A stretch of 16,845 bases of DNA from the NCBI GenBank assembly GCA_030918015.1, contig JAUPTP010000006.1, positions 1 through 16,845 on the forward strand, written 5' to 3'. Each line of letters opens with the position of its first letter. The stretch's first letter is position 1. This stretch comes from Pseudomonadota bacterium. GTDB lineage: Bacteria > Pseudomonadota > Gammaproteobacteria > Burkholderiales > Burkholderiaceae_C. The notes beneath the pieces were generated by a model that ran no database searches, was not told the DNA's origin, and saw only the letters and a program-made list of their open reading frames with translations. The position numbers and the translations under genes were made by a program. Below are positions 1 to 16,845 of this stretch, piece after piece.

Positions 1-1
1 C

Positions 2-859: not shown

Positions 860-863
860 CGCC

Positions 864-868
864 AGGAG
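864..868 (+). promoter_or_regulatory. Ribosome binding site of rfbD
   Basis: AGGAG lies 8 bases before the ATG at 877. It fixes this ATG as the start rather than any codon further upstream in the same open frame, which reaches back into rfbB. Confidence 0.75.
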
Positions 869-876
869 CCGCAGAC

Positions 877-1764: not shown

Positions 1765-1765
1765 C

Positions 1766-2653: not shown

Positions 2654-2683
2654 GCGCGTACCCGAACACGACGACGACACGAC

Positions 2684-3235
2684 ATGAACATCATCCGCAC
2701 CGCCATTCCCGACGTGCTGATCCTCGAGCCGAAGGTGTTCGGCGACGCACGCGGCTTCTTCATGGAGAGCTGGAACCAGAAGGTCTTCGACGAGGCGGTG
2801 GGCCACCCGGTGCGCTTCGTGCAGGACAACCACTCGCGCTCGAGCCGCGGCGTGCTGCGCGGCCTGCACTACCAGCTGCCGCCGCATGCGCAGGGCAAGC
2901 TGGTGCGCGTGGTCTCCGGCTCGGTCTTCGACGTCGCGGTGGACCTGCGCCGCGGCAGCCCGACCTTCGGCCAGTGGGCCGGCGTCGAGCTGACCGGCGA
3001 GAACCACCGCCAGTTCTGGATCCCGCCGGGCTTCGCGCACGGCTTCGTCGTCACCAGCGAGACGGCCGACTTCCTCTACAAGACCACCGACCTGTACGCG
3101 CCGCAGTGCGAGGGCGCGGTGCGCTGGGACGACCCGACGGTCGGCATCACCTGGCCCGAGCTCGGCATGGCGCCGCTGCTGTCTGCCAAGGATGCGGTGG
3201 CGCCGCTGCTGGCCGACGCGCGGCATTTCGACTGA
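2684..3235 (+). CDS. rfbC: dTDP-4-dehydrorhamnose 3,5-epimerase
   Basis: RmlC is a cupin-fold epimerase that inverts C3 and C5 of dTDP-4-keto-6-deoxy-D-glucose, giving the L-sugar reduced by RfbD. The protein has 183 residues, the standard length. Seen directly: DARGFFMESWN near the N terminus, the RGVLRGLHYQ strand with the catalytic His at residue 62, Lys72, Tyr132 in FLYKTTDLY, Asp170 expected to pair with His62, and FWIPPGFAHGFVV, the family signature. Catalytic numbering is by analogy with characterised RmlC enzymes. It begins 30 bases after rfbA. The gap has an ACG-rich run (2668-2680) and no recognisable Shine-Dalgarno sequence, which is unusual for this operon. A stretch with promoter-like elements follows the gene. 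Confidence 0.97.
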   Translation: MNIIRTAIPDVLILEPKVFGDARGFFMESWNQKVFDEAVGHPVRFVQDNHSRSSRGVLRGLHYQLPPHAQGKLVRVVSGSVFDVAVDLRRGSPTFGQWAGVELTGENHRQFWIPPGFAHGFVVTSETADFLYKTTDLYAPQCEGAVRWDDPTVGITWPELGMAPLLSAKDAVAPLLADARHFD

Positions 3236-3246
3236 CGGAGCCCCTC

Positions 3247-3252
3247 TACAAT
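3247..3252 (+). promoter_or_regulatory. Possible -10 promoter element before the export genes
   Basis: TACAAT matches the sigma-70 -10 consensus at 5 of 6 positions and lies about 70 bases before the export gene. The -35 region is poor: the nearest candidate, TTTCGA at 3226-3231, gives a short 15-base spacer. A second weak pair is TTGTCT at 3281-3286 with GATACC at 3304-3309, 17 bases apart. This A/T-richer gap is the only plausible internal promoter between rfbC and the export genes. The call is tentative. Confidence 0.3.
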
Positions 3253-3259
3253 CTGAACG

Positions 3260-3282
3260 AACCGCCGGATTTTCGGGTGGTT
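3260..3282 (+). other. Inverted repeat (hairpin) in the leader of the export gene
   Basis: AACCGCC (3260-3266) can pair with GGTGGTT (3276-3282), one pair being G-U, around a nine-base loop. No uninterrupted T run follows directly, only a mixed stretch around 3291-3298, so it does not look like an intrinsic terminator. It could be an mRNA leader structure or attenuator ahead of the export gene, or mean nothing. Confidence 0.35.
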
Positions 3283-3320
3283 GTCTCAGATTCTTTTCGA
3301 TCCGATACCCATCCATTTCG

Positions 3321-5327
3321 ATGACGTCTTCTCGCTCGGTTATCCCTTTGCTGCGTGGCGGCCTGCTCGCCGTGGCCCTCGCCGGGCTCCACTTCGGGGC
3401 CTGCGCCCAGTGGAACACCTCCTCATCCTCTGACATGTATGGCACCTCGTCCGACGAGACGGGGCAGCAGAACGGCTCGACGTCCTCCAATGCGCAGGGC
3501 ACCGTGACGGAGGCGGGCAGCTCGGTGAGCGGCAGCAGCACGGTGCGGCTGCAGTCCGGCAACACCTCCAGCTCGAACGCCAGCTCGACGCAGAAGCGCT
3601 CCAGCAACGGCAGCAACAGCACGAGCGACGAGCGTCAGCGCCGGCTCAACGGCGACGACACCCAGGACGACGCGCAGCAGCCGCCCGAGGTGGCCCGCCC
3701 CGACGAGTTCGAGGTCTACCTGCGCAAGCTGGGCTACCGCAACATCAAGCGCTTCGGCCAGGAGCTGATGGCCGGGCGGGGCGGCTTCGACGCCCCCGAG
3801 ACCAGCGGCCTGGTGCCGGCGGACTACGTGATCGGCGCCAACGACGAGCTGCATGTCACGATCTGGGGCTCGGCCGATGCCGATCTGCGCCTGCAGGTCG
3901 ACCGCAGCGGACGCATCACGATTCCGCGCATCGGCGCCATTCCGGTGGCGGGCGTGAAGTTCGGCGACGTGACCGAGCTGATCTCGCGCCGCGTCGGCCA
4001 GGTCTTCCGCAACTACCAGGTGAGCGTCACGCTCGGCCAGGTGCGCAGCGTGCGCGTCTACGTGACCGGGCATGTCAAGCGTCCGGGCGTCTACAACGTC
4101 AGCGCGCTGTCGAGCGTCGTCAGCGCCCTCATGCGCAGCGGCGGCCCGACCGCCGCGGGCAGCCTGCGCCTGGTCGATCTGCGCCGTGGCAAGGATCTGG
4201 TCACCCGCTACGACCTCTATGACCTGCTGGTCAAGGGCGACCGCAGCGCCGACCGCGTGGTGCAGAACGGCGATGTGATCCACATCGGTCCGGTCGGTGC
4301 TCAGGTCGCGCTGGTGGGCAGCGTCAACCGCCCGGCCATCTTCGAGCTGAAGGCCGGCGAGACGATCGACGACCTGCTGACGATGGCCGGCGGCTTCACG
4401 GCGGTGGCCGACCGTTCGCGGCTGTCGATCGAGCGCCTGGACGAGCGCGCCAAGACCCGTGTCGCCCAGCTGGAGCTGCCGGGGGCGGCCTCGCAGGCGC
4501 CCGCCAGCGGCGACGTGCTGCGCGCCTTCAGCGCGGTCGAGGCCACCCAGCCGGTGGCGCGCCAGAACAAGCGCATCCGCATCGAGGGCGAAGTGCTCAA
4601 GCCGGGCGAGTACGTCCTGCCCCCCAACGTGACCGTGAGCCAGGCGCTGGGCCTGGCGGGCGGCCTGACCTCGAATGCCTATCTCTACGGCACCGAGTTC
4701 ACCCGCGAGTCCGTGCGCCAGCAGCAGCAGGTCAGCTACGACCGCGCCCTGCGCGACATGGAGACCGAATTCGCCCGCTCCTCGGCCACGCAGCGCGCGA
4801 TCAGCGCCGACGAGGCCGCCACCTTCGAGCAGCGCAACACCGCCACCACCCGCCTGATCGAGAAGCTGCGCCAGGTGCGCCCGACCGGCCGTGTCGTGCT
4901 GCAGATGACGCCGGGTTCCGACCGGCTGCCGGATCTCGCCCTGGAAGACGGCGACCGCATCCTGGTGCCGGCCCGGCCGACCACGGTCAACGTCTTCGGC
5001 TCGGTCTTCAGCAGCGGCGCCTTCCTGCAGGAGAAGGGCCGGTCGTTCTCGGACTACCTCAACCAGGCTGGCGGCCCCACCCGTGGCGCCGACGATGGCG
5101 CGATCTTCGTGCTGCGTCCCAACGGCAGCGTGGTCAGCCAGTTGCAGCGATCCTCCTTCTTCGGTCTGGTCGGCGACATCGGCGGCACCAAGGCCGAGCC
5201 CGGCGACACCATCTTCGTGCCGGAGCGCATGAACAAGACCACCTGGGTGCAGGACCTGAAGGAATGGACGCAGATCCTGTATCAGTTCGGTCTGGGTGCG
5301 GCTGCGCTCAAGACGCTGCAGAACTGA
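3321..5327 (+). CDS. Outer-membrane polysaccharide export protein (OPX/Wza class, SLBB repeats)
   Basis: OPX proteins form the periplasm-to-surface channel for capsule or exopolysaccharide and work with an inner-membrane co-polymerase, here probably the next gene. The protein has 668 residues, well above Wza (about 380). Residues 1-29 are a signal peptide with likely cleavage after Ala-Cys-Ala; Cys28 could instead be lipidated, though the lipobox is imperfect. Residues about 31-105 are rich in Ser, Asn and Thr. A polysaccharide-export (PES) domain spans about 165-242 (VPADYVIGANDELHVTIWG). Several SLBB-like modules follow: about 244-322 (VYVTGHVKRPGVYNV), 328-400, 418-460 (IEGEVLKPGEYVLPP) and 555-635 (VNVFGSVFSSGAFLQ). 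A C-terminal segment, 645-667, resembles the membrane-spanning helix of Wza. The ATG at 3321 is the only start that gives an N-terminal signal peptide; no Shine-Dalgarno is visible. The same frame reaches back into rfbC, but that part is not coding here. Confidence 0.9.
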   Translation: MTSSRSVIPLLRGGLLAVALAGLHFGACAQWNTSSSSDMYGTSSDETGQQNGSTSSNAQGTVTEAGSSVSGSSTVRLQSGNTSSSNASSTQKRSSNGSNSTSDERQRRLNGDDTQDDAQQPPEVARPDEFEVYLRKLGYRNIKRFGQELMAGRGGFDAPETSGLVPADYVIGANDELHVTIWGSADADLRLQVDRSGRITIPRIGAIPVAGVKFGDVTELISRRVGQVFRNYQVSVTLGQVRSVRVYVTGHVKRPGVYNVSALSSVVSALMRSGGPTAAGSLRLVDLRRGKDLVTRYDLYDLLVKGDRSADRVVQNGDVIHIGPVGAQVALVGSVNRPAIFELKAGETIDDLLTMAGGFTAVADRSRLSIERLDERAKTRVAQLELPGAASQAPASGDVLRAFSAVEATQPVARQNKRIRIEGEVLKPGEYVLPPNVTVSQALGLAGGLTSNAYLYGTEFTRESVRQQQQVSYDRALRDMETEFARSSATQRAISADEAATFEQRNTATTRLIEKLRQVRPTGRVVLQMTPGSDRLPDLALEDGDRILVPARPTTVNVFGSVFSSGAFLQEKGRSFSDYLNQAGGPTRGADDGAIFVLRPNGSVVSQLQRSSFFGLVGDIGGTKAEPGDTIFVPERMNKTTWVQDLKEWTQILYQFGLGAAALKTLQN

Positions 5328-5330
5328 GGC

Positions 5331-5334
5331 AGGG
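5331..5334 (+). promoter_or_regulatory. Ribosome binding site of the PCP gene
   Basis: AGGG, within the purine-rich run 5326-5334 that overlaps the stop of the export gene, lies 8 bases before the ATG at 5343. It supports that start and coupled translation with the upstream gene. Confidence 0.55.
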
Positions 5335-5342
5335 CGCATCAC

Positions 5343-6446
5343 ATGAACGACACGACTCGCTCTGCCGCCTGGGATGAGGAGGACGGCATCAGCCTGATGG
5401 AGCTGGCCTCGCTCGTCGGCGCCCAGTGGAAACTCATCCTGGCCGGCACGGTGCTGGCCGGTGCCGCCGGCTTCGGCGGTGCCTCGCTGCTCAAGCCCGT
5501 GTTCACCGCACGCACCGTGATCATGCCGCCGCAGCAGCAGCAAAGCTCGGCGGCCAGCGCTCTCAGCTCGCTGGGCGCGCTGGCCGGGCTGGCTGGAGGC
5601 TCGGTCAAGAGCCCGGTGGACCAGTATGTCGCCCTGATGCAGAGCGTCACGGTGTCGGACCGGCTGATCGACCGGTTCAAGCTGATGGAGGTCTATGACG
5701 AGGAGTTCCGCTCCGGGGCGCGCAAGGAATTGCTGAAGCAGGCCCTGATCACGGTGGGCAAGAAGGATGGCCTGATCGTGGTCGAGGTCGATGACCACGA
5801 TGCCAAGCGCGCCGCCGACCTGGCCAATGCATATGTCGACGAGCTGCGCTACATGACCAACACGCTGGCGGTCAGCGAGGCCCAGCAGCGGCGGCGCTTC
5901 TTCGAGCAGCAGCTCGAGGCGACCAAGGCCCGCCTGACCGCCGCCCAGACGGCGCTGCAGGAAAGCGGCTTCAATGCCAGCGCCCTGCGGGCCGAGCCGA
6001 AATCGGCCGCCGAGGGCTACGCCAAGCTGCGAGCCGAGGTCACTGCCGCCGAGGTGAAGCTGCAGACGATGCGGCGCAATCTGGCCGACCGTGCGCCTGA
6101 GGTGCAGCAACAGCAGGCCCAGCTGGACGCCCTGCGTGCCGAGCTGGCCAAGCTGGAGCAGCGCGAAGCCTCGGCCGCGCCGCGCGACGCGGGCTACATC
6201 GGGCGCTACCGCGACTACAAGTACCAGGAAACGCTGTTCGATCTGTACGCCAAGCAGTTCGAGCTGGCCCGCATGGACGAGAGCCGCGAGGGCGGGCTGA
6301 TCCAGGTGGTCGACGTCGCCACGGCGCCTGACCGCAAGAGCAAGCCCAAGCGCGGTGCGATCGCGGCTGGGGCGGCGGTGCTGGCGGGCTTGCTGCTGTC
6401 GGTGCGTGCCATCGTGGTCGGGCTGCGCGCCCGGCCGCAGTCGTGA
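5343..6446 (+). CDS. Polysaccharide co-polymerase / chain-length determinant (Wzz/GNVR family, no kinase)
   Basis: PCP proteins sit in the inner membrane, control polysaccharide chain length and couple polymerisation to the OPX channel. The protein has 367 residues. Seen directly: a first membrane segment at about 30-50 after a short acidic N terminus, a small Gln/Ser/Ala-rich stretch after MPP (about 61-75), a long periplasmic region with strong coiled-coil character (about 185-290, many Gln, Ala, Glu, Arg), the conserved pre-membrane motif VATAPDRKSKPKRG, and a second membrane segment at about 338-361. It stops soon after that segment, so the cytoplasmic tyrosine-kinase domain of Wzc is absent. 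The size resembles KpsE/VexD-type or Wzz-type proteins. It begins 15 bases after the OPX gene, and the two very likely work together. Which polymer they serve cannot be read from the sequence. Confidence 0.9.
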   Translation: MNDTTRSAAWDEEDGISLMELASLVGAQWKLILAGTVLAGAAGFGGASLLKPVFTARTVIMPPQQQQSSAASALSSLGALAGLAGGSVKSPVDQYVALMQSVTVSDRLIDRFKLMEVYDEEFRSGARKELLKQALITVGKKDGLIVVEVDDHDAKRAADLANAYVDELRYMTNTLAVSEAQQRRRFFEQQLEATKARLTAAQTALQESGFNASALRAEPKSAAEGYAKLRAEVTAAEVKLQTMRRNLADRAPEVQQQQAQLDALRAELAKLEQREASAAPRDAGYIGRYRDYKYQETLFDLYAKQFELARMDESREGGLIQVVDVATAPDRKSKPKRGAIAAGAAVLAGLLLSVRAIVVGLRARPQS

Positions 6447-6460
6447 TTCACGAGGGTCGC

Positions 6461-7450
6461 ATGCCTCTGATCACCACCACGCAAGGTCGGCAGTTCTCCG
6501 TCGCCGAGGGCGAAAGCTTGCTGGATGCGGCGCTGCGGGCCGATGTCGCCCTGTCCTACAGTTGCCGCACCGGCCGCTGCAGTTCCTGCAAGGGCAAGAT
6601 TCGCGAAGGCGAAACCCGTCTGCTGCATGAGGAAACCGGGCTGAGTTCCGCTGAGCGCGAGGCGGGCTGGGTGCTGACCTGCGCGCGGCAGGCCGTGTCG
6701 GACGTGTTGCTCGAGGTCGAGGATCTGGGGGTGCCCTTGATTCCGGCTCGCACGCTGCCCTGCCGCATCCAGAGTCTGGAGCGCTTGTCCGCCGATGTGC
6801 TCCGCGTGGAGCTGCGTCTGCCGCCCAACAGCCGATTCAATTACCGGGCCGGCCAGTACATCGACGTGATCGGTCCTGGCGGGGTGCGCCGCAGCTACTC
6901 GGTCGCCAATGCCCTGGTGGAAGGCCGCCCGCTGGAACTGCACATCCGTCAGGTGCCGGGTGGCGCCATGAGCCAGTACTGGTTCGAGCAGGCGCGCCCC
7001 AATGATCTGCTGCGTCTTCACGGGCCGCTGGGCACGTTCTTTCTGCGCGATGTGGCAGATCGGGATCTGGTTTTCCTGGCAACGGGCACCGGCCTGGCGC
7101 CGGTCAAGGCCATGCTGGAGAGCCTGTCGGAGGCGGATGCTCCGCGTTCTCGCTCGGTGACCGTCTACTGGGGTGGGCGGGTGCCTGAGGATCTGTACTG
7201 GGAGAGCAGCGCACTGGCCGTGCCCCATCGGTTCGTGCCGGTGCTCTCCCGTGCGGACGCCGACTGGCATGGCCGGCGAGGCCATGTGCAGGCGGTGATG
7301 CTGGCCGATTCCACCGCCCTGGACCAGAGTGTGGTGTACGCCTGTGGTTCTGACCTGATGATCCGGGATGCACATGCGCAGCTCGTGGCGGCGGGGCTGC
7401 CCGAGCAGCGTTTCCATTCCGACGCCTTTGTCTGCTCCTCCGCTGCTTGA
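6461..7450 (+). CDS. ddhD: CDP-6-deoxy-L-threo-D-glycero-4-hexulose-3-dehydrase reductase (E3)
   Basis: This NADH-dependent iron-sulfur flavoprotein (also called AscD or RfbI) passes electrons to RfbH, completing C3 deoxygenation of CDP-4-keto-6-deoxyglucose. Seen directly: a plant-type [2Fe-2S] ferredoxin domain at about 1-90 with Cys35, Cys40, Cys43 and Cys74 (C-x4-C-x2-C then C), a FAD-binding block RRSYSVAN at about 143-150, and an NAD-binding block [15 protein letters not shown] at about 205-219 with the terminal YACGSDLMI segment. The ATG at 6461 gives 329 residues, matching the length I recall for characterised AscD; GAGGG at 6452-6456 lies just upstream, 4 bases away. A GTG at 6443 overlapping the previous stop would add six residues but has no Shine-Dalgarno. 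Third positions are less G/C-rich than in the rml genes. It is the first gene of the ddhD-A-B-C block. Confidence 0.94.
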
Positions 7451-7463
7451 CTCCAACGTATCC

Positions 7464-7470
7464 AAAGGGA
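7464..7470 (+). promoter_or_regulatory. Ribosome binding site of rfbF
   Basis: AAAGGGA lies 8 bases before the ATG at 7479. It identifies this start over several in-frame codons that overlap the end of the reductase gene upstream. Confidence 0.7.
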
Positions 7471-7478
7471 CTGAACGC

Positions 7479-8252
7479 ATGAAAGCCGTGATCCTGGCCG
7501 GGGGCCTGGGCACCCGCCTGAGCGAAGAAACCGCGACCCGCCCGAAGCCGATGGTGGAGATCGGTGGCAAGCCGATCCTGTGGCACATCCTGAAGATGTA
7601 CTCGCACCACGGCGTCAACGACTTCGTGATCTGCTGTGGCTACAAGGGCTACGTGATCAAGGAGTACTTCGCCAACTACTTCCTGCACATGTCGGACGTC
7701 ACCTTCGACATGCGCAGCAACCGCATGGAAGTGCATCACAAGCGCGCCGAGCCCTGGAACGTGACGCTGGTCGACACCGGTGATCACTCCATGACCGGCG
7801 GCCGCCTGAAGCGCGTGGCCCGCTATGTGGAGAACGACGAGGCCTTCTGCTTCACCTATGGCGATGGCGTGGGCGATGTCGACATCAGCGCGACGATCGA
7901 CTTCCATCGCCAGCATGGCAAGGCGGCCACGCTCACCGCGACCTACCCGCCGGGCCGTTTCGGCGCGCTGGATATCCAGAACCGTCAGGTCATGAGCTTC
8001 AAGGAAAAGCCCAAGGGCGATGGCGCCATGATCAACGGCGGCTTCTTCGTGCTGTCGCCCAAGGTCTTGAGCTATCTGAAGGATGACGCGACCATCTGGG
8101 AGCAGGAGCCGCTGACGAATCTGGCAGCGGACGACGAGCTGATGGCCTACGAGCACCAAGGCTTCTGGCAGCCGATGGACACGCTGCGGGACAAGGTGCT
8201 GCTCGAAGAGCTGTGGACCTCGGGCCAGGCCCCCTGGAAGAAGTGGGATTGA
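7479..8252 (+). CDS. rfbF: Glucose-1-phosphate cytidylyltransferase
   Basis: RfbF (DdhA, AscA) forms CDP-glucose from CTP and glucose-1-phosphate, the entry step to all CDP-3,6-dideoxyhexoses. The 257 residues equal the usual family length. Seen directly: the nucleotidyltransferase signature [25 protein letters not shown] at the N terminus (split here by function: glycine loop 7-12, [13 protein letters not shown] 21-33), [13 protein letters not shown], the metal-site region [27 protein letters not shown], and the terminal [11 protein letters not shown] typical of this subfamily and distinct from RfbA. The stop overlaps the start of rfbG in TGATG, implying translational coupling. Confidence in the specific CTP activity is high because rfbG, rfbH and the E3 reductase surround it. 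Confidence 0.96.
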
Positions 8253-9346
8253 TGCGCATGATGAGTTCGTCCGTCCGCCCCGAGTTCTGGCGGGGCAAGC
8301 GTGTGCTGCTGACCGGTCACACCGGTTTCAAGGGCAGCTGGCTGAGCCTGTGGCTGCAGTCGATGGGCGCCGAGTTGCAGGGTCTGGCGCTGGCGCCCCC
8401 GACCACACCCAGCCTGTTCGTGGAAGCGAACGTGGCCGAGGGCATGACCAGCCAGATCGGCGACATCCGCGATCTGGAGACCGTGCGGGCATGCATGGCC
8501 GCCTTCCAGCCCGAGATCGTCATCCACATGGCGGCGCAGCCGCTGGTGCGGCTGTCGTACCACGAGCCGGTGGCCACCTATGCCACCAACGTGATGGGGA
8601 CGGTCCATGTGCTGGAAGCCGCCCGCACCACGCCCAGCGTGCGTGCCATCGTCAACGTCACCACCGACAAATGCTACGAGAACCGCGAATGGGTCTGGGG
8701 CTACCGGGAAGACGAGCCGATGGGGGGCTTCGACCCGTACAGCAATTCCAAGGGCTGTGCGGAGCTGGTGACCTCGTCCTACCGTCGCTCGTTCTTCCAG
8801 CAGGGCGGCATCGCGCTGGCCTCGGCGCGGGCGGGCAACGTGATCGGAGGCGGCGACTGGGCAGCCGACCGGCTGGTGCCGGACATCCTGCGCGCTTTCG
8901 AGCGCGGCGAGCCGGTGGTGATCCGCAATCCCCATTCGACCCGGCCGTGGCAGCACGTGCTGGAGCCGCTCTCGGGCTACCTGGCGCTGGCCGAGCGGCT
9001 CTACACCGAGGGCCAGTCCTGGGCCGAGGGCTGGAACTTCGGGCCGCAGGACGACGATGCCCGCCCGGTGCAGTGGATCGTCGAGCATCTGGTCGCCTCC
9101 TGGGGCCGCGGCGCGAGCTGGCGCCTTGATGGCGGCGACCACCCGCACGAGGCCGGCTACCTGAAGCTCGACATCTCCAAGGCCAAGGCCCGCATGGGCT
9201 GGCGGCCCCGCTGGGACCTGGCCACTGCGCTTGAGAAGATCACCGTCTGGCACCAGGCCTGGCTGGCGAAGGACGACGTCCGCGCGCTTTGCCTGCAGCA
9301 GATCCAGCACTACGCTGGCGCCCAGAACACCACGAACTCACACTGA
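8252..9346 (+). CDS. rfbG: CDP-glucose 4,6-dehydratase
   Basis: RfbG (DdhB, AscB) is an NAD-dependent extended SDR that converts CDP-glucose to CDP-4-keto-6-deoxyglucose. From the ATG at 8252 it has 364 residues, in the family range of about 355-365. Seen directly: the NAD loop [12 protein letters not shown] at 19-30, [13 protein letters not shown] at 91-103, the catalytic TTDKCYEN at 137-144, Tyr163-x3-Lys167 in [13 protein letters not shown], and the [13 protein letters not shown] segment typical of this enzyme. The start overlaps the rfbF stop (TGATG). In-frame ATGs at 8258 and 8261 are equally possible and would shorten the protein by two or three residues. The rfbH gene starts two bases after the stop. 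Confidence 0.96.
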
Positions 9347-9348
9347 AC

Positions 9349-10704
9349 ATGAGCACCTCTCCGATCGAATTCATGCCCAAGTCGCCTGACGCCATCCGCC
9401 GCGAGATCGCGGCGCTGGTGCAGCAGTACGCCGACATCGTCCACGCGCCCAAGCCCTTCGTGCCGGGCGAGTCGGTGGTGCCGGTGTCCGGCAAGGTCAT
9501 CGGCGCCAAGGAACTGCAGCTGATGGTCGAGGCCTCGCTGGACGGCTGGCTGACCACCGGCCGCTTCAACGCCGCCTTCGAGGAGCGCCTGGCCAAGTAC
9601 CTGGGCGTCAAGCACCTGATCACGGTGAACTCGGGCTCGTCGGCCAATCTGGTGGCGTTCTCGGCGCTCACCTCGCCGCGCCTGGGCGACCGGGCGATCA
9701 AGCAAGGCGACGAGGTCATCGGCGTGGCCGCGGGCTTCCCGACCACCGTCAACCCGATCCTGCAGTTCGGCGCCGTGCCGGTGTTCGTGGACGTGGACCT
9801 GGCCACGCACAACATCGATGCCAGCAAGATCGAGGCGGCGATCACGCCCAAGACCAAGGCCATCATGCTGGCGCATTCCTTGGGCAACCCGTTCAACCTG
9901 GACGTGGTGACCGCGCTGTGCAAGAAGCACAACCTGTGGCTGGTGGAAGACTGCTGCGACGCGCTGGGCGCCACCTACAACGGCCAGCTGGTCGGCACCT
10001 TCGGTGACATCGCCACGCTGAGCTTCTACCCGGCCCACCACATCACGATGGGCGAGGGCGGGGCGGTCTTCACCAACAACGCCGAGCTGAAGCTGATCGC
10101 CGAATCCTTCCGCGACTGGGGCCGCGACTGCTACTGCCCGCCCGGCAAGGACAACACCTGCAACAAGCGCTTCTGCTGGAACAAGAAGGAGCTGGGTGGC
10201 GACCTGCCCGACGGCTACGACCACAAGTACACCTACAGCCACCTGGGCTACAACCTGAAGATCAGCGACATGCAGGCCGCCTGTGCGCTGGCCCAGCTGG
10301 ACCGCCTGGACGAGTTCATCGCCACCCGCAAGGCCAACTTCACCTACCTGAAGAACCGCCTGCAGTCGTGCACCGAGTTCCTGCACCTGCCCGAGGCCAC
10401 GCCGAATTCCGACCCGTCGTGGTTCGGCTTCCCGGTCGTGCTGAAGGAGAGCGCCGGCGTCAAGCGCGTCGACCTGCTGAACTACCTCGACCAGAACAAG
10501 ATCGGTACCCGCCTGCTGTTCGCAGGCAACCTGACGCGCCAGCCCTACATGGCCGGCAAGACCTACCGCGTCAGCGGTGAACTCACCAACACCGATGTCG
10601 TGATGAACCAGACCTTCTGGCTGGGCACCTTCCCGGCGCTGGGCGAGCCGCAGCTCGACTACATCGCCGAGAAGCTGGAAGAGTTCTTCGGGGTGAATTT
10701 CTGA
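9349..10704 (+). CDS. rfbH: CDP-4-keto-6-deoxy-D-glucose-3-dehydrase (E1), PMP and [2Fe-2S] enzyme
   Basis: RfbH (DdhC, AscC, E1) is a fold-type I PLP-family enzyme that uses PMP to dehydrate C3 of CDP-4-keto-6-deoxyglucose; with the E3 reductase it yields CDP-3,6-dideoxy-4-ketoglucose. The protein has 451 residues against about 437 for the Yersinia enzyme. Two diagnostic features are visible. His230 in SFYPAHH stands where aminotransferases have the PLP-binding lysine, so it deoxygenates and does not transaminate. The cysteine pattern C203-x57-C261-x-C263-x7-C271 exactly matches the known [2Fe-2S] motif of E1, with numbering shifted by ten. NSGSSAN near 94-100 matches the cofactor phosphate-binding loop. 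No Shine-Dalgarno is visible before the ATG, two bases after the rfbG stop. The stop overlaps the next gene in TGATG. Function is very likely intact. Confidence 0.97.
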
Positions 10705-11558
10705 TGAGCAGTGTCGCGACTCCTCAAGCGCAAACCGGTACCGACCAGCGGTTCGCACCGGCCCGCATGCGCTGCACCGTGCTCGAGATGGCCTATGCCG
10801 GCTCGACGGTGCACATCGCCTGCGCGTTCTCGATCATCGAGCTGGTGACGGTGCTGTACCGGAACCACCTGCGCTATCCCGGCAATGATCCGCGCGCAGA
10901 GGGTCGCGACTATCTGGTCCTGAGCAAGGGCCACGGTGTGATGGCGCAATACGCCTGCATGCACGAGCTGGGCTGGCTGGACGACTCGCACATCCAGGGC
11001 TACTTCAAGGACGGCAGCGAGCTCAAGGGGCTGTCCGACTCGCGCGTGGCGGGGCTGGAGGTCACGTCGGGATCGCTGGGCCACGGCTTCTCCGTCGGCG
11101 TCGGCATCGCGATGGGCCTGAAGCGCAAGGGCACCGACCAGAAGGTCTATGCCATCGTTGGCGACGGTGAACTCAACGAAGGCCCGATCTGGGAAGGCGC
11201 GCTGGTCGCAGCCCATCACCGGATGGACAACCTGATGCTGATCGTCGACAAGAACGGCTTCCAGGCGATGGGCACGACCGACGACGTGCTGGCACTGGGC
11301 GACCTGTCGGCGAAGTTCACGAGCTTCGGCTTCGAGACACTGGAGGTCGACGGCCACGACGAGGAGGCGGTCGACGCCGCCATCTGCCGACTCTGGGCGA
11401 CAGGCCCCGGCAAGCCCAAGGCGCTGATCGCTCGCACGGTCAAAGGCAAGGGCGTGCCCTTCATGGAGTCCGACAACCGCTGGCACTACACGCGCCTGAA
11501 CCCGCAGACATTCGCCGAAGCCATCGACGCGCTCGGTCTTTCCGGAGCTTCGAAGTGA
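10704..11558 (+). CDS. Transketolase-like protein, N-terminal (ThDP-binding) subunit
   Basis: The 284 residues match the first third to half of a transketolase, encoded as a separate subunit. Seen directly: His37 in GSTVHIACAFSIIELVTVLY, where transketolases have the conserved GHPGG-type histidine; LSKGHGVMAQY at 74-83; SGSLGHGFSVGVGIAMGL at 122-139; and the ThDP/Mg motif GDGELNEG from 153, ending in Asn184 of DKNG about 30 residues on. It pairs with the next gene, which supplies the pyrimidine-binding half; the active site should lie between the two. It overlaps the rfbH stop (TGATG), with a GGGTGA sequence at 10691-10696. Placement directly after rfbH suggests ketol (C2) transfer to CDP-3,6-dideoxy-4-ketoglucose rather than a pentose-phosphate role. 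That substrate is inferred. Confidence 0.92.
   Translation: MSSVATPQAQTGTDQRFAPARMRCTVLEMAYAGSTVHIACAFSIIELVTVLYRNHLRYPGNDPRAEGRDYLVLSKGHGVMAQYACMHELGWLDDSHIQGYFKDGSELKGLSDSRVAGLEVTSGSLGHGFSVGVGIAMGLKRKGTDQKVYAIVGDGELNEGPIWEGALVAAHHRMDNLMLIVDKNGFQAMGTTDDVLALGDLSAKFTSFGFETLEVDGHDEEAVDAAICRLWATGPGKPKALIARTVKGKGVPFMESDNRWHYTRLNPQTFAEAIDALGLSGASK
11544..11547 (+). promoter_or_regulatory. Ribosome binding site deciding a GTG start
   Basis: GGAG lies 7 bases before GTG 11555. That GTG overlaps the previous stop in GTGA. The site supports the GTG as start of the second transketolase subunit; the first in-frame ATG would remove the catalytic region. Confidence 0.65.
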
Positions 11559-12487
11559 GAGAGGCTTTTTCCAATGCCCTGGTGCGTCTGGCGCTGGCGG
11601 ACCCGAAGGTGCTGCTGCTGACCGGCGACCACGGCTACGCGCTGTTCGACGAATTCCGCAAGCGCTGCCCGGACCAGTACATCAACGCTGGCATCGCCGA
11701 GCAGAACATGGTTGGGATGGCGGCAGGCCTGGCTCGCGTCGGTTTCCGGCCGTTTGTCTACGGCTTGGCCGCGTTCGTGCCGATCCGCACCGTCGAGCAG
11801 ATCAAGCTCGACATCGCCCACGACGACCTGCCGGTCGTGCTACTGGGCGACGGCGCGGGCTTCGTCTACAGCCACCTGGGTACCAGCCACCAGTCGACCG
11901 AGGACATTGCCTGCACGCGCGCTATTCCCGGCTTGGAGGTTCTGTCGCCCGCCGACCGATTTGAGATGACGGCCTGCATGGACTATGCCTACCAGGCCAA
12001 CGGCCCGGTGTACCTGCGCATGGGCAAGTCAGATCGCGGCGACGTGCATGCTGTGCCGGTTGACACTTTGCAGGCCGGCCGGCTGTTGACGGTTCGCACG
12101 GGTTGCATCGATCGACCGGGGCTGATCGCGACCGGTTCGATGGTCCGAGCAGCTTTGGACATTGCTCAGGATCTGGACCTTGCTGTCTGGAGTGCCCCCA
12201 TGCTGAAACCGCTGCGTGCCGACGACGTGTGCGCCGCTGCATGCGCGACGACCGGTTTGGTGACACTGGAAGAGCACTCGGTACTGGGCGGCCTCGGCGC
12301 CGCCGTGGCCGAGATCACCAGCGAGCACCAGCCTACACGCGTACTGCGCATTGGCGTGCCGGATCGGTTTTCGGAGCACTGTGGTACGCATGCCTACCTG
12401 CTGCGCGAGCACGGCTTGGACACCGGCAGCGTCCGGGCACGCATCTCGGCGTTCGGCCAGGCGGACGGGGTCGCGTCCTCCGCATGA
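11555..12487 (+). CDS. Transketolase-like protein, C-terminal (pyrimidine-binding) subunit
   Basis: The 310 residues match the second part of a transketolase: a pyrimidine-binding domain followed by the small C-terminal domain. Seen directly: Glu49 in NAGIAEQNMVGMAAGLA, the glutamate that activates the ThDP pyrimidine ring; FVPIRTVEQIKLD; His112 in GTSHQSTEDIA, which lies in a segment with a conserved transketolase active-site histidine; and LEVLSPADRFEM. A C-terminal domain with LEEHSVLGGLG follows (from about 235), as in transketolase and DXS. The start is GTG overlapping the stop of the N-terminal subunit, which favours equal production of both subunits. The stop overlaps the following SDR in ATGA. 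Alternatives such as a DXS or a pyruvate dehydrogenase subunit fit less well, because the split with a GDG subunit of this type is typical of transketolase-like pairs. Confidence 0.92.
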   Translation: MREAFSNALVRLALADPKVLLLTGDHGYALFDEFRKRCPDQYINAGIAEQNMVGMAAGLARVGFRPFVYGLAAFVPIRTVEQIKLDIAHDDLPVVLLGDGAGFVYSHLGTSHQSTEDIACTRAIPGLEVLSPADRFEMTACMDYAYQANGPVYLRMGKSDRGDVHAVPVDTLQAGRLLTVRTGCIDRPGLIATGSMVRAALDIAQDLDLAVWSAPMLKPLRADDVCAAACATTGLVTLEEHSVLGGLGAAVAEITSEHQPTRVLRIGVPDRFSEHCGTHAYLLREHGLDTGSVRARISAFGQADGVASSA

Positions 12488-13560
12488 CAATGGCACCCAT
12501 GAACCGCCCATCCCCGCTGGGCATCCCGGCGCAGGATCTTCAGCGCTGCCATGATCTCCTCGGCCCGGCCACATGGTCGTCGCTCGCGGGACAGCGCATC
12601 TTCATGACCGGTGGCACGGGTTTCGTCGGCAAGTGGCTGCTGGCGACACTGCTGGACGCGGACGAGCGATGGGGGCTGGGCTGTTGCATCACCGTGCTCA
12701 GCCGCGATCCGGCGGCTTTCATGCGCGATTGGCCGATCATGGCCGACCGGGTCAGGTGGGTCGCCGGCGACGTCCGAGATTTTCCAATTGGCACCGAGCA
12801 CCACGACGTGGTCATCCATGCGGCAACCGATGTGATCGCGCAGGCCACTCCGCAAGAGGTGTTCTCCACTTGCCTCGACGGAACGCGCCGGGTCTTGGCC
12901 CTAGCGCACGCTTGCGGCGCCCGGCGTTTGCTTCTGCTGAGCTCGGGCGCGATCTACGGACCGTTGCCCGCGGGCATGACGCATGTTCCGGAGACCTATC
13001 TGGGCGGTCCGGATCCGCTGCTGCCTGGCTCCGCCTACGGCGAGGGCAAACGCGTGTCTGAGTGGCTGGTGGCCCAGGCCGCGACGGACACGCTGTCCGT
13101 AGGTATCGCTCGCCTGTTCGCCGTCGTGGGACCGCATCTGCCACTCGACAAGCATTTTGCTGTCGGCAACTTCTTGCGTGCCGCGATGGACGGGAAAGAA
13201 ATCGTCATCAAGGGCGATGGCACGCCGCATCGCAGCTACCTATATGCCGCTGACATGGCCGCCTGGTTGTGGGCCGTGTTGCTGCGCGGACGATGCGGCC
13301 ACGCCTACAACGTGGGCTCGGAAGACTCTGTGTCCATCCTTGAGCTGGCGCGTCGCGTAGCGCAGGCGCTCGACGCGGACGTGGCCGTGCACGCCGCCCA
13401 AACCGCTCCGGCGGACCATATTCCGCAACATTACGTACCGAGGGCGCGTCGGGCACGTGAAGACCTCGGCCTGCCGCCTCCACTCGGACTGGACGATGCG
13501 CTGCGGCGCACCGCATGCTGGCACGGCCATACCGCAATCTCGGGGAATTCAGAGTCATGA
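12484..13560 (+). CDS. NAD-dependent epimerase/dehydratase family SDR, role unknown
   Basis: An extended short-chain dehydrogenase/reductase of 358 residues acting on a nucleotide sugar; I cannot name its reaction. Seen directly: an N-terminal extension of about 37 residues, the NAD(P) loop IFMTGGTGFVGKWLL at 39-53, an aspartate-containing AGDVRDF at 94-100, VIHAATDV, the active-site serine region LLLLSSGAIYGP, and the catalytic pair Tyr185-x3-Lys189 in YGEGKRVSEWL. The C terminus has the usual VGSEDSVSILELARRV motif. The ATG at 12484 overlaps the previous stop (ATGA); in-frame ATGs at 12490 and 12499 are alternatives. Codon use shows more A/T in third positions than in rfbF-rfbH. From its place between the transketolase pair and an RfbJ-like reductase, it may reduce, epimerise or cyclise a branched sugar, which is inference only. 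Confidence 0.88.
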   Translation: MTMAPMNRPSPLGIPAQDLQRCHDLLGPATWSSLAGQRIFMTGGTGFVGKWLLATLLDADERWGLGCCITVLSRDPAAFMRDWPIMADRVRWVAGDVRDFPIGTEHHDVVIHAATDVIAQATPQEVFSTCLDGTRRVLALAHACGARRLLLLSSGAIYGPLPAGMTHVPETYLGGPDPLLPGSAYGEGKRVSEWLVAQAATDTLSVGIARLFAVVGPHLPLDKHFAVGNFLRAAMDGKEIVIKGDGTPHRSYLYAADMAAWLWAVLLRGRCGHAYNVGSEDSVSILELARRVAQALDADVAVHAAQTAPADHIPQHYVPRARRAREDLGLPPPLGLDDALRRTACWHGHTAISGNSES

Positions 13561-14471
13561 TTGTCCTGACCGGAGCCACCGGCTTTTTGGGTAGCGCCCT
13601 GCTGGCGCAGTTGCTCGCGCGAGGCGACGAGGTCGTCGCCGTCAAGCGCAGCACCTCAAGCGTCAGGAAGATACAAGCCCTCTTGGACCATCCGGGGCTA
13701 CACCTGATCGATATCGACATCGACGATCCGGCCCACCTGTTTGAGCGCTACACGATCGACACCATCATCCATACCGCGACGGAATATGGGCGCGGTGCAG
13801 CGCCGCTCTACAGCATCCTCAACGCCAACCTGTTGTTGCCGCTGAGGCTCGCCGAACTTGGCATGCAGCGCGGCGTGCGTTGCTTCATCAACACGGACTC
13901 GTTCTTCAACAAGGGCGGCAACTCCTACTCGAACCTACTGAACTACTCCTTGTCGAAGAAGAGTCTCCTGATATGGCTTGACAAGCTGGCCGGCGAACTG
14001 GGCATCATTAACGTGGTGCTCGAGCACCTGTACGGACCAGGCGACAGCGCCTCGAAGTTCGTCGAGCATGTCATCCGAAAGGTCGGCGTCGAACAGGCGC
14101 CCCACATCGCATTGACGCACGGGCACCAGCGGCGCGACTTCATTTTTCTCGACGACGTAGTGCAGGCCTATCTGAAGTTGGTGGACTACGGTCGCTCGGA
14201 AGACCTGCGGTTCGAGACCTTCGAGCTCGGCACCGGCCAATCGATGCAGGTGCGCGACTTCGTCGAGCAGATCAAGTCGATCGCCAGCAGCCCGACGATG
14301 CTCGGCTTCGGCGACATTGCCTATCGACCGGACGAGATCATGTCCTCGCACGCCGACATCTCCCGCTTGGAACGCCTGGGTTGGCACCCGACGGTATCGG
14401 CGGCGGACGGCATCCGACGCATCCTCGACATGTACGGACCTGACGCCGAGCGCGTGCGTCATGCCCCCTGA
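13557..14471 (+). CDS. RfbJ-like SDR: CDP-3,6-dideoxyhexose reductase family (CDP-abequose synthase-like)
   Basis: Extended SDR of 304 residues. From memory of Salmonella RfbJ (CDP-abequose synthase) the resemblance runs end to end: the loop MIVLTGATGFLGSALL at the N terminus, IIHTATEYG at 70-78, FINTDSFFNKGGN at 110-122, catalytic Tyr130-x3-Lys134, LEHLYGPGDSASKF, RRDFIFLDDVVQAYL, LGTGQSMQVRDFVE and a terminal LGWHP motif. RfbJ reduces the C4 ketone of CDP-3,6-dideoxy-4-ketoglucose. Here the enzyme may do that, or may reduce the side-chain ketone left by the transketolase pair, as YerF does in yersiniose synthesis. Sequence alone does not decide. The ATG overlaps the preceding stop (ATGA); GGGGA at 13542-13546 lies 10 bases upstream. 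Codon use is less G/C-biased than in the rml genes. Confidence 0.88.
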   Translation: MIVLTGATGFLGSALLAQLLARGDEVVAVKRSTSSVRKIQALLDHPGLHLIDIDIDDPAHLFERYTIDTIIHTATEYGRGAAPLYSILNANLLLPLRLAELGMQRGVRCFINTDSFFNKGGNSYSNLLNYSLSKKSLLIWLDKLAGELGIINVVLEHLYGPGDSASKFVEHVIRKVGVEQAPHIALTHGHQRRDFIFLDDVVQAYLKLVDYGRSEDLRFETFELGTGQSMQVRDFVEQIKSIASSPTMLGFGDIAYRPDEIMSSHADISRLERLGWHPTVSAADGIRRILDMYGPDAERVRHAP

Positions 14472-15552
14472 CTATCGCCCGCCCGCGCAAGTCTCCCCGA
14501 TGAAGTTCGAAGCCACCGCATCGGCGCCCCTGCTAAGCCTCTGCATCCCCACCTACAACCGCTCGTCCACGCTGCTCGCGCTCGTGCGGCGCATCCTGTC
14601 GCAGAACTGCGCGGATCTCCAGGTGGTGGTACTCGACAACGGGTCGACCGACGACACGCTGACCAGGCTGTCCGAGATCGACGACCCGCGATTGGTCGTC
14701 CTGAGCAACGGGGTCAACCGCGGGGTCCTGTTCAACGTCGTGAATGTGCTGGTGCAAGGGACCGGTACCTACAGCGCGCTCCTGCTCGACAAGGATTTGC
14801 TGGATCCCACCCTCATACCCGGATTTCTTCAGTTCCTGCGCGAGGCGCAGCCGGAATGCGGCTACTGCGAATACGGCCTCCCGGTCGACGCCGCGCCGCG
14901 CCGGTTCGAGACGGGGGCGCCCGCCCTACGCGGCGTCGCCTACAGCTGTCACCACCCCACGGGCTACTTCTTCCGTACCGATTCGCTGCGGGCAATCGAC
15001 ATAACCACCCGTTTTACCGACTACGAAGTCGTCGGCCACTTTCCGTTCGAGTTCATGCAGGCCGAATTGTGCGTACGCGGTCCCGCGGCGATTTACCAGA
15101 CGCCGATCTTCAGTCCAGAGGTGCTGCAACTCGCCAAGTCGGCGAAATCACACGGCACCCATGCCGGCAGAGAGGACGCCTTTTTCTCGCCGAAGGGCCG
15201 ACTCAAGATGACCGTCAACTTCTCGCATCACATCAGCTCGCTGGCGATCGACCCCGCGGTGAAGCGGGAGCTCATCATCGATCGCTTCGCGCAAGGCCTG
15301 CGCCAGAGTACCGTAGAGTTCCGGCGCCTGATGGCCGACGGAAACATCTGCGACCACTACCACATCGCGCCGCGCCGCATCGGCGCGCTGGAGACCCTGC
15401 GCACGGGGTGGTGGTTCCATCGGCAGTTTTCCGATCGGGTCCTGCGGTGTGCGCCGGTGGAGGCCAAGCTGACGCAGGGGCGTTTGCTGGTTGGCATGCT
15501 CCGGCGATTCCGGCAGGCCATAAGTCGACGTCTAGCCCGTCGCTTCGCATGA
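14461..15552 (+). CDS. Glycosyltransferase family 2 (GT-A)
   Basis: Cytoplasmic or membrane-associated inverting glycosyltransferase, 363 residues from the ATG at 14461. Seen directly: the GT-A opening LLSLCIPTYNRSSTLLAL from about 24, VVVLDNGSTDDTL at 55-67, and a metal-binding DxD as Asp110-Lys-Asp112 in LLLDKDLLDP, followed by a substrate-binding half of about 240 residues and a very basic C terminus (many Arg). In Salmonella the neighbouring rfbV encodes the abequosyltransferase, and the general shape agrees, so transfer of the CDP-dideoxy sugar is a reasonable guess but unproven. The chosen start overlaps the previous gene by 11 bases. ATG 14500 (350 residues) is a good alternative, leaving 11 residues before the domain; neither has a clear Shine-Dalgarno. 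The stop overlaps the next gene in ATGA. Confidence 0.88.
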   Translation: MPPDYRPPAQVSPMKFEATASAPLLSLCIPTYNRSSTLLALVRRILSQNCADLQVVVLDNGSTDDTLTRLSEIDDPRLVVLSNGVNRGVLFNVVNVLVQGTGTYSALLLDKDLLDPTLIPGFLQFLREAQPECGYCEYGLPVDAAPRRFETGAPALRGVAYSCHHPTGYFFRTDSLRAIDITTRFTDYEVVGHFPFEFMQAELCVRGPAAIYQTPIFSPEVLQLAKSAKSHGTHAGREDAFFSPKGRLKMTVNFSHHISSLAIDPAVKRELIIDRFAQGLRQSTVEFRRLMADGNICDHYHIAPRRIGALETLRTGWWFHRQFSDRVLRCAPVEAKLTQGRLLVGMLRRFRQAISRRLARRFA

Positions 15553-16845
15553 CCGGCCCGACCCTCACCTCCCGGCTGATCCGCATCGCCGGCATCGACT
15601 TCCATGTCTTGGCGACGCTCCTGTCACGCGGATGGTCGGTCGTGGCCGGCGCGCTGACTGTCCTGCTGGTGCCGCTGTTCCTGTCCCCCACCGAGCAAGG
15701 CTACTACTACACCTTCGCCAGCCTGCTCGGCCTGCAGATCCTGTTCGAACTGGGTTTGGGGCAGGTGATCATCCAGCTCGTCGGTCATCACGCCGCCCAT
15801 CTGGAGATCATCGGTGATGATCGCCTCGCCGGCGAGGAGTACCATATCGACCTGCTCGCCTCGCTGACGCGATGGCTGCGTCGCTGGTATCGCGTTGCCG
15901 CCCTCGCCTTCGCCCTGCTCGCTGGTGGCGCGGGCGGTCTGTTTCTCACCCTAAAGGGCCAGTTGTCGGTGGAGCATTGGACCCCCGTCTGGGTCGTGCT
16001 GGTACTGTCCAGTGCTGTCAACCTGACCTATGTCCCGCTGCTGGCCCTCCAGGAGGGACTGGGCCGGATCGGCCAAGTGGCACGGCTGCGCCTGGCCCAG
16101 TCGGTGGTCGGGTACGCCGCCTTGTGGCTGGCGCTGTTCGGCCAGCTGTCGCTGTGGGCCGCGTGCATGGTCCCGCTGGCCACCTCCCTACTGACGGCCT
16201 ATTGGCTGAACCGGATCGCGCCGCTGCACCGCTGGCTCTGCGCCCGCCCCCCGACGACCGAGAGCGGGCTGGACTGGCGCCGCGACGTGTTCCCGTTCCA
16301 GTGGCGCATCGCGCTGAGCGCGATTAGTGGCTACTTCATCTTCTACGCCTTCACGCCCCTTGTCTTCGCCAACCGCGGGGCCGTCGAGGCCGGCCGTTTC
16401 GGCATTGCGATGGCGGTGTTCAATGCCCTGTCGGCAGTCGGCACGAGCTGGGTCTATGCCCGCGCCCCGGCCTTCGCGATGCACATCGCGCGGGGGGAGC
16501 GCGCGCAGCTCAACTCACTATTCTTGGCAGTGCTGCGACGTTCGGTGATCTTCACGACCGTAGTGGCCGCGAGTGTGGTGCTGACCGTGGTCTTCCTGGA
16601 CCAACTGGGCGTGCAGCAGATGAAGCGCATCGCCGATCCAGCCGTGCTGACCTGCTTGGCTGCGGCCTGCGCCGTCAACGCCGTCATCTTTTCCGTCGCC
16701 GCCTACATGCGCGCCCATCGCGAGGAACCGATGCTGCCGGTGTCGATCGTCGGCGCCGTGCTGACCGCCCTGATCGCATATGTCGGCTCCAAGTACAGCG
16801 TGCTGGCGATGAGCCTGCTGTACGCACTGTTGACGGCGTGCGTGC
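15549..16845 (+). CDS. wzx: Wzx-like oligosaccharide flippase, 3' end cut by window
   Basis: The frame is open from the ATG at 15549, which overlaps the previous stop (ATGA), to the last base, giving 432 residues with no stop. It is a polytopic inner-membrane protein with about 12 hydrophobic segments, near residues 28-46, 58-78, 115-135, 145-168, 183-203, 203-222, 256-274, 283-303, 332-351, 366-386, 397-412 and 417-432. The first segments contain LLSRGWSVVAGALTVLLVP and the EQGYYYTFASLLGLQ motif seen in Wzx/RfbX-type polysaccharide transporters. Such proteins move undecaprenyl-linked repeat units across the inner membrane. The family is usually about 420-500 residues, so most of the protein is present. 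Salmonella has rfbX at the corresponding point of its locus. An O-antigen ligase or Wzy polymerase is less likely because there is no large periplasmic loop. Confidence 0.85.
   Translation, partial: MTGPTLTSRLIRIAGIDFHVLATLLSRGWSVVAGALTVLLVPLFLSPTEQGYYYTFASLLGLQILFELGLGQVIIQLVGHHAAHLEIIGDDRLAGEEYHIDLLASLTRWLRRWYRVAALAFALLAGGAGGLFLTLKGQLSVEHWTPVWVVLVLSSAVNLTYVPLLALQEGLGRIGQVARLRLAQSVVGYAALWLALFGQLSLWAACMVPLATSLLTAYWLNRIAPLHRWLCARPPTTESGLDWRRDVFPFQWRIALSAISGYFIFYAFTPLVFANRGAVEAGRFGIAMAVFNALSAVGTSWVYARAPAFAMHIARGERAQLNSLFLAVLRRSVIFTTVVAASVVLTVVFLDQLGVQQMKRIADPAVLTCLAAACAVNAVIFSVAAYMRAHREEPMLPVSIVGAVLTALIAYVGSKYSVLAMSLLYALLTACV

Follow-up and report, generated by a model that had tools for sequence, protein, structure and literature searches.

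Introduction

According to a 2025 review, YerE uses 2-keto acids as substrates and passes activated acetaldehyde, derived from pyruvate, on to CDP-3,6-dideoxy-4-keto-D-glucose (PMC12247030). The same review describes other enzymes that branch keto sugars with the help of thiamine diphosphate (ThDP), i.e. the pyruvate dehydrogenase (PDH)-E1-type alpha-KADH2 enzymes of aldgamycin, kosinostatin and kibdelomycin, and it reports that split transketolases have been proposed, but not shown in vitro, to carry out the hydroxyacetyl branching of a keto sugar in miharamycin and amipurimycin (PMC12247030). It also gives 13 further candidate split transketolases, all from Streptomycetes and none characterised in vitro, and treats a role for transketolases in keto-sugar branching as still pending (PMC12247030). 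Here we describe a pair of genes, tktN and tktC, which encode the two halves of a split transketolase directly downstream of rfbH in a polysaccharide gene cluster of a Pseudomonadota bacterium of the order Burkholderiales (assembly GCA_030918015.1, contig JAUPTP010000006.1, positions 1 to 16,845 of the forward strand; this whole stretch of 16,845 nucleotides is referred to as the window). We consider it probable (at about 0.72) that the pair is a split, ThDP-dependent, transketolase-type C-C ligase that branches C4 of CDP-3,6-dideoxy-4-keto-D-glucose with a two-carbon unit.

The pair resembles the YerE-type lyases (YerE, ErwE and JanthE) in its position, in its cofactor and in what follows it: both occupy the slot after rfbF, rfbG and rfbH, both are followed by the same type of reductase of the short-chain dehydrogenase/reductase (SDR) class, both depend on ThDP, and the acceptor is probably the same. 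The proteins themselves differ, in that YerE-like proteins contain the TPP_enzyme N, M and C domains whereas the pair has transketolase domains distributed across two chains. The split transketolases of miharamycin and amipurimycin are, as described in the review, also like the pair in their proposed C2 transfer onto a keto sugar. The cited examples of the PDH-E1 type belong to antibiotics, and TktN of the window favours Transketolase_N (119 bits) over E1_dh (37 bits). The split transketolase of Carboxydothermus hydrogenoformans (6yaj, 6yak) keeps, as judged by the motifs GHPD, THAG and EDGASHQ, the residues H100, H461 and D469 (numbered here and below on Escherichia coli TktA), where the pair of the window has GLSD, GDGAG and HLGTSHQ. 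Our literature search, which covered open papers, found no report of such a pair in lipopolysaccharide (LPS) operons; C4 branching in operons of this kind is known only for an unrelated enzyme, that of the YerE type.

Results and Discussion

The pair encodes the two halves of a transketolase

The pair and the genes on which its interpretation depends are as follows:

7479..8252, + strand: rfbF, glucose-1-phosphate cytidylyltransferase (TIGR02623, 478.6 bits, cut-off 300)
8252..9346, + strand: rfbG, CDP-glucose 4,6-dehydratase (TIGR02622, 505.9 bits, cut-off 278)
9349..10704, + strand: rfbH, CDP-6-deoxy-4-hexulose 3-dehydrase, E1 (NF011936, 743.9 bits, cut-off 423)
10704..11558, + strand: tktN, diphosphate-binding half of the split transketolase, type I clade, 284 aa (Transketolase_N, 119 bits; 6yak)
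11555..12487, + strand: tktC, pyrimidine-binding half with the catalytic Glu E49, 310 aa (Transket_pyr, Transketolase_C; 6yaj)
12484..13560, + strand: SDR1, putative reductase for the branch ketone or for a C4 ketone (Epimerase, 118.5 bits; overlaps the tktC stop)

TktN has a GDG motif at residue 153 and clears the Transketolase_N cut-off of 22 bits by a wide margin, and TktC, whose catalytic glutamate was placed at E49 by alignment, matches Transket_pyr (100 bits) and Transketolase_C (56 bits). The Pfam domains of TktC are of the transketolase type only and the TPP_enzyme_N/M/C set of YerE is not found in the pair; apart from E1_dh, TktN has a TPP_enzyme_C score of 22.3 bits, which is barely above the cut-off of 21.9. 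The NCBIfam transketolase models, which were built for full-length chains, give 221 bits for TktN and 147 bits for TktC and their cut-off of 488 is not reached. The nearest solved relatives are the two chains of the Carboxydothermus split transketolase (TktN to 6yak, E 1.6e-51; TktC to 6yaj, E 2.7e-49). An AlphaFold2 prediction for TktN from 16 close rows was poor (mean pLDDT, the predicted local distance difference test, 43.5) and was not used. A first-pass annotation, made from the letters of the window, had placed a split transketolase with a GDG/ThDP half and a catalytic-Glu half at 10704..12487; the coordinates proved exact and the domain searches confirm the assignment.

That annotation had also described the pair as overlapping the rfbH stop on one side and an SDR gene on the other, and this is what the junctions show: the last base of rfbH, at 10704, is also the first base of tktN (TGATG), and 4-base overlaps link tktN to tktC (GTGA), tktC to SDR1 (ATGA, with the SDR1 ATG at 12484) and SDR1 to the second SDR gene, SDR2 (SDR2 ATG at 13557). 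Every stop codon from rfbH through SDR2 therefore overlaps the next start. The rfbG start at 8252, which is one among several possible, has one base in common with rfbF. RfbF, RfbG and RfbH of the window each exceed their NCBIfam cut-off, i.e. these three genes of the CDP-3,6-dideoxyhexose pathway are present, and RfbH, which contains a Cys cluster and an SFYPAHH motif that we take to be the His replacing the pyridoxal phosphate lysine, is by its sequence a true E1-type dehydrase.

Since the pair is a transketolase by sequence, it could be an ordinary pentose-phosphate enzyme that lies in this operon by chance. However, the same assembly (2.96 Mb, 69% complete) has a separate canonical transketolase on contig C194 (504 bits), so tktN and tktC do not encode the housekeeping enzyme, and a strong separate transketolase match was found in 17 of the 18 carrier genomes searched, the genome of the window included. 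The first-pass annotation had named proof that this is the cell's only transketolase as something that would speak against its reading, and this is not the case. The housekeeping assignment was rejected on these grounds, and the linkage across phyla and the altered residues described below also speak against the chance explanation, which we regard as very improbable indeed.

The pair is linked to rfbH across phyla

Relatives of the pair were collected by a scan of one genome per species, which returned 354 stretches encoding a TktC relative, and the best 80 were kept; the set is limited to the closest relatives, and loci that lie side by side in the tree do not count as independent. By record title the best 80 of the 354 fall in seven phyla (Pseudomonadota, Cyanobacteriota, Chlorobiota, Planctomycetota, Bacteroidota, Spirochaetota and Actinomycetota), although many come from metagenome bins and single phylum placements may be wrong. 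In a tree that took every third locus plus the window, the 28 sampled pairs form one clade with a support of 100/100, which we call type I.

tktN adjoins tktC in all 80 loci, and the 4-base overlap is present in 67 of the 77 in which it was measured. rfbH lies on the same strand and no more than 4.5 kb upstream in 67 of the 80 loci (63 of the 70 with at least 2.2 kb of upstream sequence and 4 of the 10 with less), and a stricter rerun (200 bits, 45% identity) returned the identical 67. Its start is 1.2-2.4 kb before tktC in 46 loci, a spacing that leaves space for little beyond tktN, and 2.4-4.5 kb before it in 21. When the whole genomes of the 13 carriers without rfbH close upstream were searched, RfbH was found above the curated cut-off in 11, three of which (L032, L064 and L067) hold it inside the fetched locus. 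RfbH is thus present in 78 of the 80 genomes with the pair, against a baseline of 39 with RfbH above the cut-off in an even sample of 300 genomes from the order. Of the 67 nearby RfbH proteins, 65 show the His-for-Lys and Cys motifs (the other two are cut by contig ends), and these proteins are by sequence the dehydrase, not aminotransferases. These counts are the outcome of a check proposed by the first-pass annotation, i.e. a search for co-occurrence of the pair with rfbH across genomes, and they show that the coupling to CDP-dideoxysugar genes that it had noted is general and not limited to the window. That the pair belongs to CDP-3,6-dideoxyhexose synthesis, as gene content and order indicate, is well supported.

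We considered whether the linkage could be an artefact of testing nearest relatives only. In the sample of 300 order genomes, TktC had a match at E 1e-60 in 10, with rfbH no more than 4.5 kb upstream in 4 and no RfbH match at E 1e-100 in the other 6; the 4 comprise three type I pairs, the window's included, and the genome G057. The artefact explanation was rejected on the strength of this sample. When another 398 genomes, drawn from the phylum, were searched at E 1e-90, the only matches were in the genome of the window and in G679; the G679 locus has the order E3-rfbF-rfbG-rfbH-tktN-tktC-SDRb (SDRb being a reductase gene described below) and is probably not independent of the locus L060, whose contig has the same length. 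Among 296 genomes around G302, which is the genome of locus L074, 47 had a match at E 1e-50, and of the five loci read besides that of L074 (L121-L124 and L131), L121 and L122 contain rfbH. At L105 (G103) rfbH precedes rfbF and rfbG, which run straight into tktN, tktC and SDRb.

The ThDP core is intact and the substrate residues are altered

Residues were compared in a main alignment that includes the window and has 80 rows for TktN and 83 for TktC; the TktN rows leave out L022, L071 and L083, although a full TktN is present in L083. The ThDP core, with the GDG motif, the thiamin-site His residues and the catalytic Glu, is invariant: all 80 TktN rows have H26, H66, D155, N185 and H261, and all 83 TktC rows have R358, E411 and H473. 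H100 is replaced by Leu in all 80 TktN rows (Leu110 in TktN of the window), and all 83 TktC rows have Gly in place of H461, Leu in place of D469 (Leu108 in the window) and Lys in place of R520, with S385 of the E. coli enzyme lying in an alignment gap. The alignment also has a two-residue gap between H461 and D469; in an ungapped reading, the 79 family rows examined all still have Gly at H461. We take H100 to be the equivalent of yeast His103 and to contact the donor C1 hydroxyl, and D469 and H461 presumably have roles with aldose-phosphate substrates.

The replacement of H100, H461 and D469 was repeated in a second alignment of 79 family rows with 14 other split transketolases, which left out loci without both halves longer than 200 aa. 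Among these 14, H100 is retained in 13, and H461 and D469 in none. As the loss of H461 and D469 is common to the other split enzymes, it is the loss of H100 that marks the type I clade; the only one of the 14 in which H100 is not kept is a further pair in the window's own genome, on contig C336. Additional marks of type I include Lys84, Pro76 and Leu71 of TktC and Phe210 of TktN.

The pair and YerE-like enzymes precede the same reductase

Among the 63 loci with full flanks, the reductase gene was of the SDR1 type in 29, of a second type (SDRb) in 29 and of neither type in 5, and no locus had both (the match limit was 60 bits, and some SDR1 matches are distant). The SDR1-type gene sits between rfbH and tktN in many loci, and in L025, L046 and L047 an SDR1-type open reading frame (ORF) is present downstream, past the distance limit. 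SDRb is placed more regularly, with 34 of the 36 SDRb ORFs in tktN-tktC loci starting directly after tktC.

The same 300 order genomes gave 42 rfbH rows, of which 40 places were examined (the G251:C5 copy and a partial G170 copy were left out) and 36 places without type I pairs were read. SDRb is present in 4 of these 36 (L136, L154, L158 and L173), where it shares 60-64% identity with the L021 SDRb and in every case lies directly after an acetolactate-synthase-like ThDP enzyme of 569-590 aa. TPP_enzyme N, M and C domains were found in the L136 and L173 proteins, and NCBIfam was run on those of L136, L154 and L158. Among solved structures, the L136 protein is closest to 5ahk (603 bits), which is probably PpYerE. 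A search with SDRb alone (E 1e-40) found it in 6 of the 300 genomes, after a YerE-like enzyme in 4 and after tktN-tktC in 2, and all 6 have RfbH. Six of the 40 examined rfbH places, two of which belong to G251, have a YerE ortholog, and none of the 80 tktN-tktC loci does; the orthologs are 69-83% identical to one another where compared. In L135 and L143 the ortholog is accompanied by an SDR1-type gene (33% and 29% identity, respectively) in place of SDRb. Because SDRb follows both enzymes, one acceptor pathway and one reductase family appear to be served by either of two unrelated ThDP enzymes.

This exchange raises the explanation that the pair performs the chemistry of YerE itself, with pyruvate as donor, an acetyl group added to C4 and a yersiniose-like product, i.e. 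a non-orthologous replacement with one product. The type of reductase is the same behind both enzymes, as the identity to the L021 SDRb indicates, and in the SDRb tree the YerE-linked rows fall among the tktN-tktC-linked ones, although this tree is poorly resolved, also as to whether the reductases linked to YerE form a single group. The loss of H100 in every family row points the same way, and TktC scores almost as well against 1-deoxy-D-xylulose-5-phosphate synthase (DXS), an enzyme that uses pyruvate, as against transketolase. TktN, however, is clearly transketolase-like (221 bits against 30 for DXS), no DXS-specific pyruvate residue was identified in the pair, and an aliphatic residue at H100 does not alone bring decarboxylation. 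YerE chemistry is in our view rather unlikely.

A further protein was observed beside these enzymes: L132 encodes at 4940-6781 (minus strand) a TPP_enzyme-class protein that is 32-34% identical to the YerE-like proteins and recurs in the rfbH loci L161, L163, L165, L166, L011 and L012.

A proposed branching reaction

The fold family of the pair, its intact ThDP core, its altered substrate residues, its coupling to rfbH and the YerE-like exchange before the same reductase were all computed. Because RfbH is present in nearly all carrier genomes, and because the pair takes the same slot ahead of the same reductase as the YerE-like enzyme, the pair most likely branches a 4-keto sugar. In the reaction sequence that we propose, RfbF, RfbG and RfbH together with the E3-like reductase would supply CDP-3,6-dideoxy-4-keto-D-glucose, and TktN and TktC would load a C2 unit from a donor onto ThDP. 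The bound unit would then be added to the C4 ketone, which is the most likely acceptor, to give a tertiary alcohol that bears a keto side chain; the SDR encoded next to the pair would reduce the side-chain ketone, and the branched sugar would enter the surface polysaccharide.

For the donor unit, hydroxyacetyl has close to an even chance, favoured by the transketolase class of the pair and by the miharamycin proposal, while acetyl from pyruvate appears a good deal less probable and other units share what remains. The loss of H100 weakens the case for hydroxyacetyl, and Leu at this position together with the shared reductase would fit an acetyl branch equally well; as H100 is lost in every family row but retained in 13 of the 14 other split enzymes, four of which also lie beside rfbH, an acetyl or other acyl unit may be transferred instead. 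The core of what the first-pass annotation had put forward, a C2-branching enzyme for a 3,6-dideoxy sugar, has thus been strengthened by the rfbH linkage and by the slot shared with YerE, but the hydroxyacetyl unit that it had specified is plausible and unproven.

Several results weigh against the branching of C4 by the pair. Two of the 80 genomes, those of L074 and L077, hold only a weak RfbH relative. The loss of H461 and D469 is shared by the 14 other split transketolases, most of which were not seen with rfbH, and is therefore by itself no pointer to a CDP sugar. The DXS score of TktC (144.6 bits) is nearly equal to its transketolase score (147.4 bits). Of 35 rfbH loci that lack a type I pair, 10 have an SDR1-type match, and no ThDP enzyme was seen near two of these 10 (L138 and L141), so SDR1 may be a plain 4-ketoreductase. 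Four tktN-tktC loci (L011, L012, L018 and L062) also hold a different ThDP enzyme, which is nearest to the L132 protein. Finally, the literature search, one query of which was aimed at the sugar, found no polysaccharide structure of a carrier.

A more specific proposal, which we make tentatively and at slightly worse than even odds, is that the clade is a separate class of LPS type. In it, a transketolase present in about seven phyla would transfer hydroxyacetyl to CDP-3,6-dideoxy-4-ketoglucose and, with an SDR, yield a 4-C-(1,2-dihydroxyethyl)-3,6-dideoxyhexose, the cassette being exchanged with YerE. If this were true, the replacement of one ThDP enzyme by another, unrelated one would be a way for bacteria to vary a surface sugar. 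The type I clade occurs in cultured and uncultured bacteria and is linked to a defined acceptor pathway, and YerE, which occupies the same slot, provides a matched control; the question of branching transketolases is therefore directly testable. The pair may also point to an as yet undescribed surface sugar, and may be of use as a biocatalyst for making tertiary alcohols.

Split transketolases outside the type I clade

Four split pairs outside type I (L104, L121, L122 and L159) keep H100 and lie in loci with rfbF, rfbG and rfbH. The tree places L104 with L159 and L121 with L122, i.e. at two positions among pairs not seen with rfbH, which suggests that split transketolases joined rfbH more than once. 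An FkbM-type methyltransferase lies in between at L159.

At L124 and L131 the split transketolase is directly followed by what appears by eye to be a DegT-type aminotransferase, in glycan-like clusters in which no rfbH was seen. L126, L127 and partly L130 share a recurring set (again by eye) of a split transketolase, SDRs and a HAD-like protein or alcohol dehydrogenase, and come from order genomes without an RfbH match at E 1e-100.

Clusters such as L124, L131, L126 and L127 would be consistent with the idea that the type I pair acts on a neighbouring precursor, either a sugar phosphate destined for another component of the same polysaccharide or CDP-4-keto-6-deoxyglucose before RfbH. Against this, almost every type I genome has RfbH, in most cases a short distance upstream of the pair, the residues H461 and D469 are absent, and L121, from the same sample as L124 and L131, does hold rfbH (53% identity). 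Action on such a precursor is in our view improbable, and the C4 ketone formed after RfbH is preferred as the acceptor.

Other genes of the window and of its genome

The gene order in the window is dTDP-rhamnose genes, export genes, an E3-like gene, rfbF, rfbG, rfbH, tktN, tktC, SDR1, SDR2, a glycosyltransferase gene and the beginning of a flippase-like gene. For the rhamnose, export and flippase genes the names were given by eye from the translations, with no family search behind them. The features not given above are:

6443..7450, + strand: E3-like reductase, candidate electron donor for RfbH (Pfam Fer2, FAD_binding_6, NAD_binding_1)
13557..14471, + strand: SDR2, second SDR (Epimerase, 101 bits)
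14500..15552, + strand: family 2 glycosyltransferase (Glycos_transf_2, 50 bits)
15549..16844, + strand: flippase-like membrane protein (Wzx), an open frame truncated by the contig end (likeness by eye to community 16 of the relatives, no family search)

The E3-like reductase has 2Fe-2S, FAD and NAD domains and reaches none of the NCBIfam cut-offs. An E3 homolog lies upstream on the same strand in 10 of the 80 related loci and on the opposite strand in 1, i.e. its linkage is not constant, and a homolog was found anywhere in the genome (E 1e-30) in 9 of the 12 carrier genomes searched. No counterpart of SDR2 was found by tblastn (E 1e-10) in any of the 80 related loci, and the enzyme may introduce a modification specific to this lineage.

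Origins of the pair from mobile elements were also considered and rejected: none of 6 pattern matches among viral contigs was confirmed, and no relative was found among plasmids at E 1e-60.

The pair on contig C336 of the same genome (locus L107, 1705-4480, minus strand) is a third transketolase, unlike that of the window, to whose two halves it is 37% and 31% identical. It adjoins a gene that resembles, by eye, a TIM-barrel sugar isomerase, and this suggests a catabolic role for the C336 pair, which is likewise without H100.

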